Assembly (NCBI GenBank): GCA_028344335.1
Contig: JAOMAZ010000001.1
Span: forward strand, 75,468-133,750
Direction: 5' to 3'
Length of the DNA stretch: 58,283 nucleotides
Origin: Deltaproteobacteria bacterium
Lineage (GTDB): Archaea; Thermoplasmatota; Poseidoniia; Poseidoniales; Poseidoniaceae
Shown here: piece after piece, positions 17,800-52,725 of the stretch
How positions within the stretch are numbered: the first letter of the stretch is position 1
Layout: every line of letters starts with the position of its first letter
Program-made: the position numbers and the translations under genes
The notes under the pieces: model-generated
Seen by the model: the letters and a program-made list of their open reading frames with translations, nothing else
Told to the model about the DNA's origin: nothing
Database searches by the model: none

Positions 17800-18106
17800 G
17801 GCTGGGATAGGAGGGGTGTTGACGTGCCCTGTACCGCAAATCGTGACTGGCGGTCCGAACGCCTTTGGGCGGCGCAATCGAGCTCGGAGTTTCCCTCGCA
17901 TGGACGTCGATGTCTCGCCCTTGAGTGACTCGGGTTGTCGTGAACTGTACCCGGAAGGGGACGGGAATCGCATAACTGGGGAATCAGGTCAGGCCGGGAA
18001 CGGAGCAGCCCTACTCAGGGCCATGGGTGCCTCAGGGATGCGGGGCGGAGGAAGTGCGAGGGTCTGGCTCTGAGAGGCGAGCGTCCACCGAGGGCCCTCC
18101 CACTCA
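17800..18106 (+). ncRNA. ffs: Signal recognition particle 7S RNA
   Basis: GC-rich, non-coding and about 300 nt. The S-domain core AGGTCAGGCCGGGAACGGAG followed by CAGCC matches the conserved helix 8 asymmetric loop of SRP RNA, which binds SRP54. The 5' part GGGGTGTTGACG...CCCTGTACCGCAAAT fits the archaeal Alu domain. TGGGATAGG (17803-17811) can pair with CCCTCCCA (18096-18103) as helix 1, which sets the approximate ends. With SRP19 and SRP54 it targets secreted and membrane proteins. Exact ends are uncertain by about 10-20 nt. A hairpin GGGGG-CTCCAT-CCCCC lies just upstream at 17781-17796. Reading frames across this stretch in the ORF track are spurious. Confidence 0.93.
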
Positions 18107-18132: not shown

Positions 18133-18588
18133 TCAAATATCGAAAACAACATCACCAATCCAGCCAGGCCCAATAATATCTGGAACTTCTGGATAAGGTG
18201 ATGAAACCTGTTCCGCAGCACCTAATTCTCGGACCTGTAAATCATGCCTTGTAATCGCCTTGATTTCAACTTCTCTCTCAACTTCGCTTGCATCTACCCA
18301 AGCAACTTGGCAATGCAATTGCTGACCTAGCATGAATGAGATATCAACCACCCATTCATTGTGAATTTCTGCTCGATAAAGGGTTTCTTCCAATACTTTA
18401 ACCAGCATTCTATCCCAATCATCTTTCCCTATATTCCACTGAGAATGATGCCACGGGAGGTTAAACTCGGTGGCAGAGAGTAAGATGCTTTGCATCCCAA
18501 GAACTGCCTCTTTTAGTACTCCTTCTGGAGAACTTGAGAAGGCCCGCAATCCAATATCGGCGGTAGTGCCGAATGGCCATGAACTCAT
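18133..18588 (-). CDS. Archease (RtcB/tRNA splicing cofactor)
   Basis: 151 aa from the ATG at 18588, 4 nt after the kinase stop; the track's longer version overlaps the kinase gene in another frame. The N-terminus PFGTTADIGLRAFSSSPEGVLKEAVLGM matches the archease signature DHTADIGLRAxG, with Thr in place of the His. HCQVAWVDASEVEREVEIKAITRHDLQV is the second conserved block, and the C-terminus PGWIGDVVFDI carries the conserved DVVFDI end. Archease speeds guanylylation of RtcB and lets it turn over during tRNA ligation. RtcB itself lies about 21 kb away at 39.1 kb. The substituted His is a small oddity; the Asp of TADIG and the terminal Asp are retained. Confidence 0.9.
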   Translation of the reverse strand: MSSWPFGTTADIGLRAFSSSPEGVLKEAVLGMQSILLSATEFNLPWHHSQWNIGKDDWDRMLVKVLEETLYRAEIHNEWVVDISFMLGQQLHCQVAWVDASEVEREVEIKAITRHDLQVRELGAAEQVSSPYPEVPDIIGPGWIGDVVFDI

Positions 18589-18592
18589 GATT

Positions 18593-19648
18593 TCACCTTT
18601 GGGATATTTGCATCGACCAGGCGACTTCATCCAATCTTGTACATAGGGTCTTGCGGTCGATTGCAAAGTGTGCCGCATCTTCTGCTTGTAGAATACATTC
18701 ACAGGCAGCATTAGCCAAGTGAGCCATGTCAAGGTCAGAAAGCGAAAGCGCACGGGCTGCTACGACTGCAACTACTGCTGCATCAATCAACCCGATTTGT
18801 TGGCGAGGCTCAGGTAATGTGCAGGACACATGAATGTGTTCTTGATCAGATTTGTAAAGATCGACTCCATTTTGGCCACCTAGTACCAAGAGGGAATCCC
18901 AACCATGTTCTTCTACTAATTCCCAAGCAGCCTCTTCCTCAGTTGATTTTGAGAGACGTCTGCGCATTAATTCTAATCCTCTTGATTCGAAGATAACCAC
19001 GTCTGCACCTTTGGTGCGGTGCAAACCTGTCAATTTAGGGTCGCAAATAACTGGGACTCCGGCTGTCTTTGCATGTCGAATGAGAGATTCTGCAGTTTCG
19101 TCATTAACAACTCCTTTTCCGTAATCGGAGATAACTAAGGCACCGGCTTTTGGTATTAATTCCGATGCTTGATTGGCCAATAATTCTGCAACTTCGCTTG
19201 ACACGTCATCGAGTGCTTCTTCATCGACTCGTAGCATCATTTGCTTATTGGCAATCAGGCTTTCTCTACTGGCAATAAATCGGGTCTTTACCGTGGTTCT
19301 CCAACTCTCAAGAACTGCAACACCGTCAGACTTGATTCCTGCTTTTTCGAGTGCATCGATAACATCAGACCCTGCTTCATCATCACCAACTACACCAAAA
19401 ATGGAAACTTTGTGTTGCAGAGATGTTAGCCCCCTAGCCACATGGGCTGCTGCTCCTGCTCCTTGTTCACGCTGAGTTTCCTTGAGAACTGGCACCGGTG
19501 CTCTTGGGTTGAGGTTATTTGCATAGCCATAAATGAAGCGGTCTAGCATAACGTCTCCAACAAGGACGACCAAACTTGGAGCCATATTCTCGACACGTCG
19601 TCGAGTATTCTGTAAGCCGTCATGGATGCCCCAATCGCCCTCGTCCAT
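18593..19648 (-). CDS. PfkB-family kinase, HldE/RfaE-like, altered GAGD loop
   Basis: 351 aa from the ATG at 19648; the ATG at 19585 is an alternative. The N-terminus VLVGDVMLDRFIYGYANNLNPRAPVPVLKE is very close to the heptose-phosphate kinase domain of HldE, followed by GAGAAAHVARGLTSL and VVGDDEAGSDV. The mid-region SDYGKGVVNDE is the conserved PfkB segment. The catalytic loop, normally DVTGAGD with the base Asp, reads QQIGLIDAAVV: the Asp can be aligned but the glycine anion hole is lost. A sugar or nucleoside kinase activity is therefore in doubt; a substrate-binding or regulatory role is possible. It lies 4 nt before archease and 31 nt after the winged-helix gene, in one operon. Confidence 0.82.
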   Translation of the reverse strand: MDEGDWGIHDGLQNTRRRVENMAPSLVVLVGDVMLDRFIYGYANNLNPRAPVPVLKETQREQGAGAAAHVARGLTSLQHKVSIFGVVGDDEAGSDVIDALEKAGIKSDGVAVLESWRTTVKTRFIASRESLIANKQMMLRVDEEALDDVSSEVAELLANQASELIPKAGALVISDYGKGVVNDETAESLIRHAKTAGVPVICDPKLTGLHRTKGADVVIFESRGLELMRRRLSKSTEEEAAWELVEEHGWDSLLVLGGQNGVDLYKSDQEHIHVSCTLPEPRQQIGLIDAAVVAVVAARALSLSDLDMAHLANAACECILQAEDAAHFAIDRKTLCTRLDEVAWSMQISQR

Positions 19649-19679: not shown

Positions 19680-20657
19680 TCATTTCATGTTGTCCCGAAT
19701 ACTGGTGGCGATTGCAACATGAACCTCGGTTGGGATGGACAGGCTGCGGCGCAGGCTTGATAGAATTGCATCTTCATCCAAACTGATAACTCCATCCTCC
19801 AAAGCAGTTCGAACCGCATCAACGTAAGGATGTATGTTAGATTCTAAGCCATCAAGTAATTCAGCATGTGCAATAACTTGTCCAACTAGCCTTCCATGCA
19901 CTTCTAAACTAATATCTAGAGTTTTGCGTAGGGTTTCTAACATCACTTGTTCTTCTTCTATTATTTCTCCATCCTCAAGTGCCTGTTCCAATAAGTCTCG
20001 GTAGATATTTTCTCGGTCAGGACCTTTGCTTTCAGTGAGGGTATTGAGGGCTTCTTGTTCAATTCTTGTAACTCTTTCAGGACTCATTCCAATGAAGGTT
20101 ACAATTTCTTCAACAATCCCTCTTTCTGCTTCTGAAAGACTTCCATCTCTCCAAGCCCTCTCGAAAACTGCCTTTACCAAAGCCTCACTGATTTTACCTT
20201 CCATTCCAAGACTGCCTTTTGCTTCAGAAATTGGCACAACTAGTGGTTCTTGATGCCAATTTAAATTCTCATCAACATGTGATAATAAGGTGAGTAAATC
20301 TTCGTTATCCTCAAACTCACTGAGAGGTGAAGGATTGCCATCTGTGATGACCTCTAGATTGAGAACTCTCCTGCGTATTTCCTGACTTCGCTCTTTACCC
20401 TTAGCAGTCAGCATGTAGACTCGACGACGTTGCTTCGCACCATCGACGTGGCGATTCTCCTGTTCTATGTCTTCTGATTCAATCATCCTCTTCAAAGTCC
20501 TTGGTAAGTGCTTTCTTTGGATGAATACAGCACTCGATATACCGGCTTGAGTATTTTCTGGTGGAGCCTCCCACCCTCCGACTTTCAGGAGCTTATCGGA
20601 AAGGTGAATCAAGACCCTCTCTTCAACTGTCAAGACACCGAGTTGGCCACTAACCAT
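19680..20657 (-). CDS. Winged-helix DNA-binding protein with three TerB-like repeats
   Basis: About 325 aa from the ATG at 20657 (20684 also possible). The track's extension to 21200 is rejected because it covers the start of endA. Residues ~1-110 look like a MarR-type winged helix: LTVEERVLIHLSDKLL, then GISSAVFIQRKHLPRTLKRMIESEDIEQENRHVDGAKQRRRVYMLTAKGKERS, with the recognition helix and basic wing. The C-terminal half contains three ~50-residue helical repeats, each with an acidic loop: RDGSLSEAERGIVEEIVTFIGMS, EDGEIIEEEQVMLETLRKTLDIS and EDGVISLDEDAILSSLRRSLSIP. Their form is like the TerB fold. It is probably a transcription regulator whose C-terminal domain senses a metal or stress signal (inference). 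Transcribed divergently from endA. Confidence 0.75.
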   Translation of the reverse strand: MVSGQLGVLTVEERVLIHLSDKLLKVGGWEAPPENTQAGISSAVFIQRKHLPRTLKRMIESEDIEQENRHVDGAKQRRRVYMLTAKGKERSQEIRRRVLNLEVITDGNPSPLSEFEDNEDLLTLLSHVDENLNWHQEPLVVPISEAKGSLGMEGKISEALVKAVFERAWRDGSLSEAERGIVEEIVTFIGMSPERVTRIEQEALNTLTESKGPDRENIYRDLLEQALEDGEIIEEEQVMLETLRKTLDISLEVHGRLVGQVIAHAELLDGLESNIHPYVDAVRTALEDGVISLDEDAILSSLRRSLSIPTEVHVAIATSIRDNMK

Positions 20658-20745: not shown

Positions 20746-21795
20746 ATGGCAACAGAAAAGGGCCGCGACCTGAAACCACGCCAACGTGGAAATCGGCCTA
20801 TTTTAGAAAATGAAGAATTACGAGATGTCCTAATTGCAGAAGGGAGTGGTTGGAGGGTCGAGCCTCCAATCTCAAGCCGCCTTTGGCAAAAATCAGCCCT
20901 TGGAAAAACCATCAAAGGAGGATCTGTGCTGCTTTCACCTGCTGAAGCCCTGTTTTGCCATTGGCACAGAAACTTGGCACTTCCAAAGAACTTCATGACA
21001 GAAATGCTTGCTTCAAACCCAAGATTCTTACATGAGGCGGTGGCTATTGAGGCGGTTCGTTCTGGTGGAGAAATATTGTCAATTTGTACTGAAAATTTAC
21101 ACCATGGGAACCTTCGATGTGAAAACACATGGGGTATGAGATGGGAGAGAACCTCCCACCCCTCAAAAGATCCACCTGTTTCGCAAGTACGATGGTTCAT
21201 CTCCTCTGACGATTTGGATTTGGCTGACCTACAATTATGGGTTATGAAAGTAGAAAAAGTGGGCCAAACACCAGAAGTTGTTGTTGTCGATTCTGAATAT
21301 GGTTCTACAATCTATCGCCTATCATCACCAGACCCTCGCGGCAAATTAAGGCCTCCTTCTGAAATACAAATACCTGACTTGGGCGGAGAGCAGAGCGGCT
21401 TCATCCAATATGTAAATTGGCCATTACCAAATATTGGAGTACCTCAAGCCGGAGGGATTAGTCTGGATAATACCGAGAAAGAATGGTTGGAGAATTACCT
21501 CCAAGGAACCGAACATATTGGTGATGCATATCTCCTAAATGAATTATTAGAGCGTGGACTTATTGCAAGACCTGGTTTCAAATATGGTTGCAAATGGAGA
21601 GTATATGATGATGATATCTCAAAAGTCCATGCACCTTGGTTGATGTCAACTGAATCCGAAATGCCTCGCTCTTGGGAAGAAGCCTGCTTACGGGCTCGCT
21701 TATCAGCAGGCGTCAACAAAAAGTGGGTTTGCATTCAACAAAGCTCTGATGGTGCTTCATTCCTGTCTATTGAAAGGGTCTTCTTGGGGCGCTGA
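20746..21795 (+). CDS. endA: tRNA-splicing endonuclease EndA
   Basis: 349 aa. The C-terminal catalytic block is clear: LNELLERGLIARPGFKYGCKWRVYDDDISKVHAPWLM with Tyr280 and His295, and the Lys in VNKKWVCI (325/326). These three form the RNase triad of archaeal and eukaryotic splicing endonucleases. The N-terminal half (SGGSVLLSPAEALF-like segment at ~60-75, then MTEMLASNPRFLHEAVAIEAV) looks like a degenerate copy of the same fold. The length fits the two-repeat homodimeric type. The enzyme cuts bulge-helix-bulge motifs in intron-containing tRNAs to leave ends that RtcB joins. It diverges from the winged-helix gene across about 90 bp, and its last 39 bases overlap the convergent M6 protease gene. 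Confidence 0.9.
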   Translation: MATEKGRDLKPRQRGNRPILENEELRDVLIAEGSGWRVEPPISSRLWQKSALGKTIKGGSVLLSPAEALFCHWHRNLALPKNFMTEMLASNPRFLHEAVAIEAVRSGGEILSICTENLHHGNLRCENTWGMRWERTSHPSKDPPVSQVRWFISSDDLDLADLQLWVMKVEKVGQTPEVVVVDSEYGSTIYRLSSPDPRGKLRPPSEIQIPDLGGEQSGFIQYVNWPLPNIGVPQAGGISLDNTEKEWLENYLQGTEHIGDAYLLNELLERGLIARPGFKYGCKWRVYDDDISKVHAPWLMSTESEMPRSWEEACLRARLSAGVNKKWVCIQQSSDGASFLSIERVFLGR

Positions 21796-38996: not shown

Positions 38997-39064
38997 GCTA
39001 CTCCTCCAAGACGGGGCGGTTGAGTCAATGCCTTCAATGAAACGGCTGTTGAGCCACGCATGTG

Positions 39065-39072
39065 CTTATATC
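39065..39072 (+). promoter_or_regulatory. rtcB TATA box
   Basis: CTTATATC lies about 27 bp upstream of the ATG at 39096. At the usual archaeal spacing, transcription would begin at or just before that ATG, so the mRNA is probably leaderless. This rules out the track start at 39060, which lies upstream of the box. Confidence 0.55.
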
Positions 39073-39095
39073 TCGATGTTGGCAGGTTAGCCGTG

Positions 39096-40577
39096 ATGAA
39101 GGGTTCTGCAACGTGGATGGAACACCTGACAAGGGTTGATCAACACACCTTGAAAATAGAAAAACATGGAAAAATGAATGTTGATGCGATGCTTGTTTGT
39201 GATGAAAATCATTGGAATAGACAATCTGATGATAGAAGTCCAGCCCAACTTGTCAATTCGGCCTGCTTGCCAGGAGCAGTAGGAGAAGCATGGGGAATGG
39301 CGGATTGGCATTTCGGCTATGGCTTTCCAATCGGTGGAGTTGTTGGTACTGATGTTGAATACGGTCAACAAGGAGGAGCTATTTCCCCTGGTGGAGTTGG
39401 TTTCGATATCAATTGCGGAGTACGATTATTGACCTTGGATATCGGAATAGATGACATTCCAAATATCAAGAAACTAGCAAGCAACCTTGCTGGGGTCATC
39501 CCCGCAGGAGCAAGTGGCAAAGGAGGAGTCCCACTCACAGAGTCAGAATTGGACGGCATTCTGAATGAAGGAGCTAAGGCAGCAGTGGAATTGGGCTGGG
39601 GTCATGATGAGGATCTAGCCTGCATCGAAAGTGAGGGGCAATTAGAACACGACGGCAATGCCCTCAGTTCAAGAGCAATGCAACGCGGCTTGAAAGCACT
39701 CGGCACCCTTGGTAGTGGCAACCATTTCTTAGAATTACAATGTGTTGACAAAACTGTGGATGAAGAAGCAGCAGCTCTCTATGGCCTTAGACCAGGCCAA
39801 ATCTGTTTGATGATTCATTCGGGCTCACGTGGGCTTGGTCACCAAGTTTGCTCAGAACATGTAGATATAATTGAGAGAAAATATTCCCCAAAAGGTGACG
39901 AATGGTATAGTGAAGAATGGGATTGGAGTTTACCTGACCGTCAACTGGCTGCAGCACCTATTTACTCAAAACAAGGACAATCATATCTCGAAGCGATGAA
40001 TGCTGCTGGTAACTTTGCTTTTGCTAATCGCTCAGCCTTGGCTCAACGTGCTCGTAAAGTTTTGAATAAACACTTAGGCGTAAATGGAGAAGCCACATTA
40101 CTGTACGATGTTTCACACAATATTGCAAAGATTGAGAATCATAGTATTGACGGCAGGAATTGCTCTTGTTGCGTTCATAGAAAAGGCGCTACTAGGGCTT
40201 TCTCAGGGGATTCAGATGATATCTCTTCGAGGTTCTTAGAAGTCGGTCAGCCCGTACTAGTTCCAGGGGATATGGGCACAGCCTCGTGGATTTTATCTGG
40301 GCCTAAGGTCGGAAACAATCGAGCCTTTGGAAGTTCATGTCATGGGGCTGGCAGAGCCCTATCCCGTACTGCTGCAAGGAAGTTGATTGATTCTGATGCT
40401 TTGGCTGAGGATTTAGAAGCGCGAGGTATTATTATTCATGCTAAGACAGGGAACATACTGAGTGAAGAAGCACCTGCTGCTTACAAAGATGTAGATGAGG
40501 TCATTGCTTTGACAGAAGGTGCTGAATTGGCAAGGGCTGTTGCAAGGTTGCGGCCGGTGGCAGTGATTAAAGGATGA
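39096..40577 (+). CDS. rtcB: RNA-splicing ligase RtcB
   Basis: 493 aa from the ATG at 39096, chosen because the only good TATA box sits about 27 bp upstream. LVNSACLPGAVGEAWGMADWHFGYGFPIGG, GGVGFDINCGVRLL with the metal Cys, GTLGSGNHFLELQ, IHSGSRGLGHQV and LYDVSHNIAKIENH are diagnostic. The GMP-accepting His is in SCHGAGRALSRTAARK near the C-terminus. No intein is present. RtcB joins 2',3'-cyclic phosphate to 5'-OH RNA ends with GTP and Mn2+, as after EndA cutting of tRNA introns. Its cofactor archease is at 18.1 kb and EndA at 20.7 kb. Confidence 0.96.
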   Translation: MKGSATWMEHLTRVDQHTLKIEKHGKMNVDAMLVCDENHWNRQSDDRSPAQLVNSACLPGAVGEAWGMADWHFGYGFPIGGVVGTDVEYGQQGGAISPGGVGFDINCGVRLLTLDIGIDDIPNIKKLASNLAGVIPAGASGKGGVPLTESELDGILNEGAKAAVELGWGHDEDLACIESEGQLEHDGNALSSRAMQRGLKALGTLGSGNHFLELQCVDKTVDEEAAALYGLRPGQICLMIHSGSRGLGHQVCSEHVDIIERKYSPKGDEWYSEEWDWSLPDRQLAAAPIYSKQGQSYLEAMNAAGNFAFANRSALAQRARKVLNKHLGVNGEATLLYDVSHNIAKIENHSIDGRNCSCCVHRKGATRAFSGDSDDISSRFLEVGQPVLVPGDMGTASWILSGPKVGNNRAFGSSCHGAGRALSRTAARKLIDSDALAEDLEARGIIIHAKTGNILSEEAPAAYKDVDEVIALTEGAELARAVARLRPVAVIKG

Positions 40578-52245: not shown

Positions 52246-52298
52246 GTGTTTGTGCATGAGCAAGTTTCTCCGTGCTTTCTTGAGCAGGCGTTGTTGAG

Positions 52299-52381
52299 CG
52301 CCGAGAGGGAGATTTGAACTCCCGCGGGACGGACCCACGTGATTTCCAGTCACGCGCGATACCAGGCTATGCGATCTCGGC
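52299..52381 (-). tRNA. tRNA-Ser(GGA)
   Basis: Read on the minus strand: acceptor GCCGAGA pairs with TCTCGGC, discriminator G. The anticodon arm GTGACTGGAAATCAC carries GGA for serine, the variable arm is long (class II, GTGGGTCCGTCCCGC) and the T arm is GGGAGTTCAAATCTCCC. No intron and no encoded CCA are present. Confidence 0.97.
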
Positions 52382-52440
52382 AGCGAGCCGTCCACCTGCT
52401 CGCTCGGTTTAGCCATATCGGACCTCAATCCAGTGAGGTC
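52382..52440. repeat. Two hairpins between divergent tRNA genes
   Basis: AGCGAGC/GCTCGCT (starting at 52382, adjacent to the tRNA-Ser 5' end) and GACCTCA-ATCCAG-TGAGGTC (52421-52440) are perfect seven-base stems in the 104-bp gap between the two tRNAs. They lie where both tRNA promoters should be. Whether they act as DNA sites or as a small RNA is not clear. Confidence 0.35.
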
Positions 52441-52485
52441 GCGGGCGAAGCGGTTATGATTGAAAGGCAGGTCGGCGCAAATACT

Positions 52486-52557
52486 GCCACTGTGGCTTAG
52501 AGGTATAGCGACGCATTGGTAATGCGTAGGTCGTGAGTTCAATTCTCACCAGTGGCT
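52486..52557 (+). tRNA. tRNA-Thr(GGT)
   Basis: Acceptor GCCACTG pairs with CAGTGGC, discriminator T. D arm GCTTAGAGGTATAGC, anticodon loop TTGGTAA with GGT for threonine, T arm GTGAGTTCAATTCTCAC. It is 72 nt with no intron and no encoded CCA. Confidence 0.97.
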
Positions 52558-52725
52558 CTCTAGATACTACGATTGTTTAGGCTGTTGTTGTATATGGAGA
52601 TGGATTTTAATTGAATTAATACAATTGATTGAAGTCCTTCCTGAGGTTTAGTTTGTTGAAAAAGCATAGTTGTCCTGCGCTTGTTTGCGAACTCTTCATG
52701 TCTAACTTATCCCAGCGAAGCCCCG

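Follow-up and report, generated by a model that had tools for sequence, protein, structure and literature searches.

A PfkB-fold protein of Poseidoniales derived from heptose-7-phosphate kinases carries a rebuilt donor site and is encoded beside archease and EndA

What function remains in a protein with the fold of a sugar kinase when its phosphate-donor site has been replaced, and what does it mean that its gene lies next to genes for RNA splicing? These questions are raised by a gene at positions 18593 to 19648, on the reverse strand of the window (the whole stretch of 58,283 nucleotides that was analyzed). The gene is an intact open reading frame that begins with ATG, contains zero internal stops, and encodes a protein of 351 amino acids, hereafter the kinase-like protein. 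The protein is matched by Pfam PfkB (PF00294; E value, 1e-23), and its top curated model is TIGR02198 (rfaE_dom_I; E value, 6.8e-55), although the score of 186.4 bits lies well below the cut-off of 345 for membership in HldA/HldE. An AlphaFold2 model built from 37 orthologues (pLDDT, 88.7) had as its top structural match the HldA protein of Burkholderia cenocepacia (4e84; E value, 2.4e-27; 27% identity), with a TM score of 0.88 by target length, and also matched ribokinase, which places the protein in the PfkB/ribokinase fold. HldA 4e84 was also the sole PDB sequence match at 1e-10. A single-sequence AlphaFold2 model of a second family member reached a pLDDT of 38 and was uninformative. The kinase-like protein is thus nearest to the heptose-7-phosphate kinase HldA/HldE, but unlike HldE it has no adenylyltransferase domain. 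A fused HldE-like protein, with the adenylyltransferase first and a kinase domain in which GAGD is intact, was found in one Poseidoniales assembly (L212, 625 to 2139; G012:C2), and may reflect horizontal transfer or a foreign contig.

Residue conservation was examined in 112 homologous locus records, some of which are duplicates of one genome, aligned against E. coli HldE. The loop of the protein in the window reads QQIGLIDAAVV where E. coli HldE has YDVTGAGDTVIG, with G261, A262, G263, and D264 of HldE corresponding to G286, L287, I288, and D289, respectively. The codons for I285-G-L-I-D289, which stand in place of T-G-A-G-D, are located at 18782 to 18796 on the reverse strand, as calculated from residue numbers. 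In all 112 records the GAGD site reads [IVL]G[LIM][IHL]DA[AV], and GxGD is absent from the loop position in every one of them, while the first Gly of the loop and the catalytic Asp (D289) are always kept. The Thr directly before GAGD in HldE is likewise replaced, so that T-G-A-G-D becomes I-G-(L/I/M)-(I/H/L)-D, and the Asp located three residues ahead of GAGD has become Gln or Gly. A second donor-side motif is also lost. At the NxxE position, whose codons in the window (E221-S-R-G224, reverse strand) map to 18977 to 18988 by the same calculation, the Glu is replaced by Gly in 112 of 112 records and the Asn position is occupied by Gln, Glu, Lys, or Gly, giving forms such as QxRG and ExRG. In kinases of the ribokinase fold, the phosphates of the donor are held by the two Gly residues of GXGD, the Asp acts as the catalytic base, and NXXE binds Mg (PMC5931981, PMC2651755, PMC10339645). 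The other PfkB proteins that were checked in the same genomes retain GxGD, indicating that the loop change is specific to this protein, and an order-wide loss of the motif from every PfkB protein was rejected on these grounds and because the fused HldE-like protein has GAGD. A GSGD pattern match in one record (L105) lies at residue 233, outside the loop.

A sequence-only reading of this DNA had described the N-terminal part of the protein as HldE-like, in agreement with the rfaE_dom_I and HldA matches, and had reported the altered loop correctly; GLID at the GAGD site proves to be a form of a family-wide feature, and the comparison of close homologues that it had proposed revealed no relative with an intact GAGD among the 112 records. 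Its description of a protein "without GAGD" holds for the motif but not for the first Gly and D289, which are present. Its proposal of either a pseudokinase or an enzyme with an altered site is supported. It had missed the loss of the NxxE Mg motif.

The acceptor half is largely that of HldA/HldE. The fold and the catalytic Asp are common to the kinase-like protein and the HldA/HldE N-terminal domain (B. cenocepacia 4E84 and E. coli HldE), as are the acceptor-side motifs GDxMLDR, a GGAAN-like motif, TxxKxR, SDY(A/G)KG, and DPK, in which most positions are retained. Residues G31, D32, D36, G65, K121, R123, Q136, S174-D175-Y176, G179, and D203-P204-K205 are invariant in the 112 records. The invariant catalytic Asp and the intact acceptor pocket would suggest that some chemistry has been retained. 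Besides the changes of GAGD to GLxD and NxxE to xxxG, the protein differs from HldA/HldE in the change of GGAAN to GAAAH, in a 7-residue insertion with an invariant Arg, and in an invariant Trp and an SxR C terminus. Invariant residues that are new to the family include A66 and H69, whose HldE counterparts are Gly and Asn, as well as G224, L227, R231, A290, W344, S349, and R351; R128, within the insertion, and L131, in or beside it, are also invariant. Every record terminates with [IV]SxR (I348-S-Q-R351 in the window, with codons at 18596 to 18607 on the reverse strand), and the use of six different codons for the last Arg indicates that this residue is held at the level of the protein. In the window, the AGG codon of R351 and the stop codon TGA double as the Shine-Dalgarno sequence of archease, and such overlap of the stop with the archease Shine-Dalgarno sequence is frequent, as in AGGTGAAATCATG from the genus of the window. 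Conservation of the C-terminal Arg merely for the sake of AGG TGA was nevertheless rejected, as six codons are in use and archease-less loci of derived members of family f2 also end in SxR.

The kinase-like gene is present in 54 of 59 relatives. Four of the relatives without it (G011, G046, G047, and G048) also gave no EndA in a similar search, and the locus is probably missing from their assemblies; the fifth (G018) has EndA, but its contig ends short of the gene. Among 293 genomes drawn from across the phylum, the one non-Poseidoniales match below 1e-20 was a distant protein with an intact GAGD (G196). Among the 80 loci listed in a scan of genome contigs, almost all were labeled as Euryarchaeota/Poseidoniales. 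The family is thus restricted to Poseidoniales (Marine Group II) and near-universal there, a core gene of one order. One of the listed loci (L106; NZFX01000060.1), labeled as a Phycisphaerae bacterium, carries the kinase-like gene together with the winged-helix/TerB gene described below and archease, and is probably a misbinned Poseidoniales contig. Pairwise dN/dS values, determined within the genus, where synonymous sites are unsaturated, were 0.05 to 0.08, indicating that the protein is under functional constraint.

The gene for archease, the RtcB-activating factor, is found at 18133 to 18588 on the same strand (Pfam Archease; E value, 1.1e-14). Archease is the usual partner of the RNA ligase RtcB, and in splicing EndA cuts the RNA and RtcB joins it together with archease. 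The 4-nt spacing to archease that the sequence-only reading had given is correct, with AATC separating the TGA of the kinase-like gene from the archease ATG, but the pairing that it had emphasized is conserved only in part of the order. Archease is immediately downstream in 97 of 112 records, including every examined f1 record and those of the basal f2 genera g17 and g19, and all 15 exceptions belong to f2; the pairing is broken in most of this family. In derived f2, archease has been relocated to the vicinity of rtcB (about 9 kb off in G036, for example), and the kinase-like gene stays beside EndA. In three fairly complete g15 genomes (G038, G042, and G054), archease was not detected, while the kinase-like gene and RtcB are present, possibly reflecting an RtcB that is independent of archease.

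EndA, the tRNA-intron endonuclease, went unmentioned in the sequence-only reading and is a more constant neighbor than archease. In the window it lies at 20746 to 21795 on the forward strand. It is divergent and upstream in 99 of the 101 records that have at least 3 kb of upstream sequence, and in both exceptions, from genus g5, inserted genes displace it to about 6.5 kb, making EndA the most constant splicing-related neighbor of the kinase-like gene. Directly upstream of the kinase-like gene and on the same strand is an open frame for a winged-helix and TerB-like protein (19680 to 20600), which is present in f1, basal f2, and g15, with no close match in derived f2. RtcB is encoded by an open frame at 39024 to 40577 on the forward strand, about 20 kb away. 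The arrangement resembles an archease-RtcB tRNA splicing operon in that archease is codirectional with a tightly spaced gene and RtcB is present in the genome, but differs from it in that archease adjoins the kinase-like gene, near EndA and about 20 kb from RtcB. Gene order from TatC, an M6-type peptidase, and EndA through to CcmE and PyrD is syntenic across much of Poseidoniales, so that neighbors within this block need not be functional partners and adjacency alone is weak evidence; the tight, codirectional spacing with archease suggests somewhat more than adjacency does. Between archease and ccmE, an archaeal signal recognition particle RNA (RF01857; 109.8 bits) is encoded at 17800 to 18105 on the forward strand, accounting for the spurious open reading frames in that region.

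The explanation that we favor, and to which we give about an even chance, is that the kinase-like protein is a ligand-binding pseudokinase serving as an accessory factor or sensor in tRNA splicing. The protein would have descended from a heptose-7-phosphate kinase ancestor into a form specific to Poseidoniales, in which the ATP-Mg donor site (NxxE, GAGD, and the preceding Asp and Thr) appears to have been dismantled and the sugar-binding acceptor half and the catalytic Asp have been kept. We think that phosphate transfer from ATP has most likely been lost, and that the protein probably binds a sugar-phosphate or a nucleotide-like ligand. An intact acceptor pocket and base, a dismantled donor site, strong selection, and a new invariant C terminus fit a protein that is no longer an ATP-dependent kinase and still binds a small ligand, while a role in splicing is proposed because the neighboring genes point to RNA splicing. 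The protein, presumably cotranslated with archease, would act on the pathway in which EndA cuts and RtcB joins with archease, and its contacts with these three proteins would be putative. The protein is acidic (pI of about 5), which does not suggest that it binds RNA directly. A more specific and, in our view, rather unlikely version is that of a metabolite-sensing subunit, in which a sugar-phosphate or nucleotide would occupy the old acceptor pocket and the invariant C terminus would set the activity of archease-RtcB or of EndA. The syntenic block, the relocation of archease in f2, and the retention of the gene in g15 genomes with no detectable archease all count against an accessory or sensor role. 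Plant FRUCTOKINASE-LIKE 1 and 2 (FLN1 and FLN2), for which no substrate has been found, are PfkB proteins that belong to the plastid RNA polymerase complex (PMC3409070). They resemble the kinase-like protein in being PfkB-type proteins without a demonstrated substrate and associated with an RNA machine (PMC3409070), and they illustrate that recruitment of PfkB proteins to RNA machines does happen. They differ in belonging to the plant fructokinase branch and in that their membership in the complex was established experimentally, whereas we infer association from gene order.

A plausible, if less probable, alternative is that the protein is an active small-molecule enzyme, a sugar-phosphate kinase that uses an unusual donor or metal with D289 as its base, and that its gene lies near those for EndA and archease solely through ancestral synteny. 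Such an enzyme would account for the invariance of D289 and of the HldE acceptor pocket, for the extension of synteny across the order beyond the splicing genes, and for the persistence of the gene where archease has been lost or relocated. A change of donor also has a precedent in the ribokinase family in TM0415 (PMC5931981), and TM0415-type PPi-dependent kinases resemble the kinase-like family in that their GXGD loop contains a large residue. Against this, all 112 records lack both the second Gly, which holds donor phosphates, and the Glu that binds Mg. The known PPi signature is also absent: PPi-dependent members of the ribokinase family carry RXGRGD (PMC5931981), and TM0415-type kinases keep this motif and both Gly residues, whereas the kinase-like family does neither. 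A PPi-dependent kinase was consequently rejected, the window reading RQQIGLID, with Leu, Ile, or Met at the position of the motif Arg and no second Gly.

An ordinary heptose-7-phosphate kinase (HldA) that tolerates the loop change would agree with rfaE_dom_I as the top curated model and with HldA as the nearest solved structure, but we consider it improbable: with 186 bits the protein falls well short of the 345 required, every member lacks the two motifs GAGD and NxxE, and the family has gained invariant residues of its own. Although the genomes are mostly metagenome assemblies, we found no support for a sequencing or assembly error as the cause of GLID, or for a decaying pseudogene, and we reject both with near certainty, as 112 records from many separate assemblies agree, dN/dS is low, and the frames are intact without internal stops.

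No published account of the kinase-like protein or of a link between PfkB proteins and archease was found in the literature searched. Marine Group II is described as outnumbering all other planktonic archaea in the surface waters of the ocean (PMC6461757). The kinase-like protein belongs to the core gene set of this group, and its best existing label is a misleading match to a sugar kinase. Should it prove to be a pseudokinase, the recruitment of PfkB proteins to RNA machines would have a second example, one not related to FLN1 and FLN2 of plants, and archaeal RNA ligation would gain a possible metabolic input. Activity, on the other hand, would break with the rule that phosphoryl transfer in the PfkB fold needs GXGD and NXXE. 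Elsewhere in the window, at 52298 to 52558, divergent genes for tRNA-Ser(GGA) and tRNA-Thr(GGT) are found.
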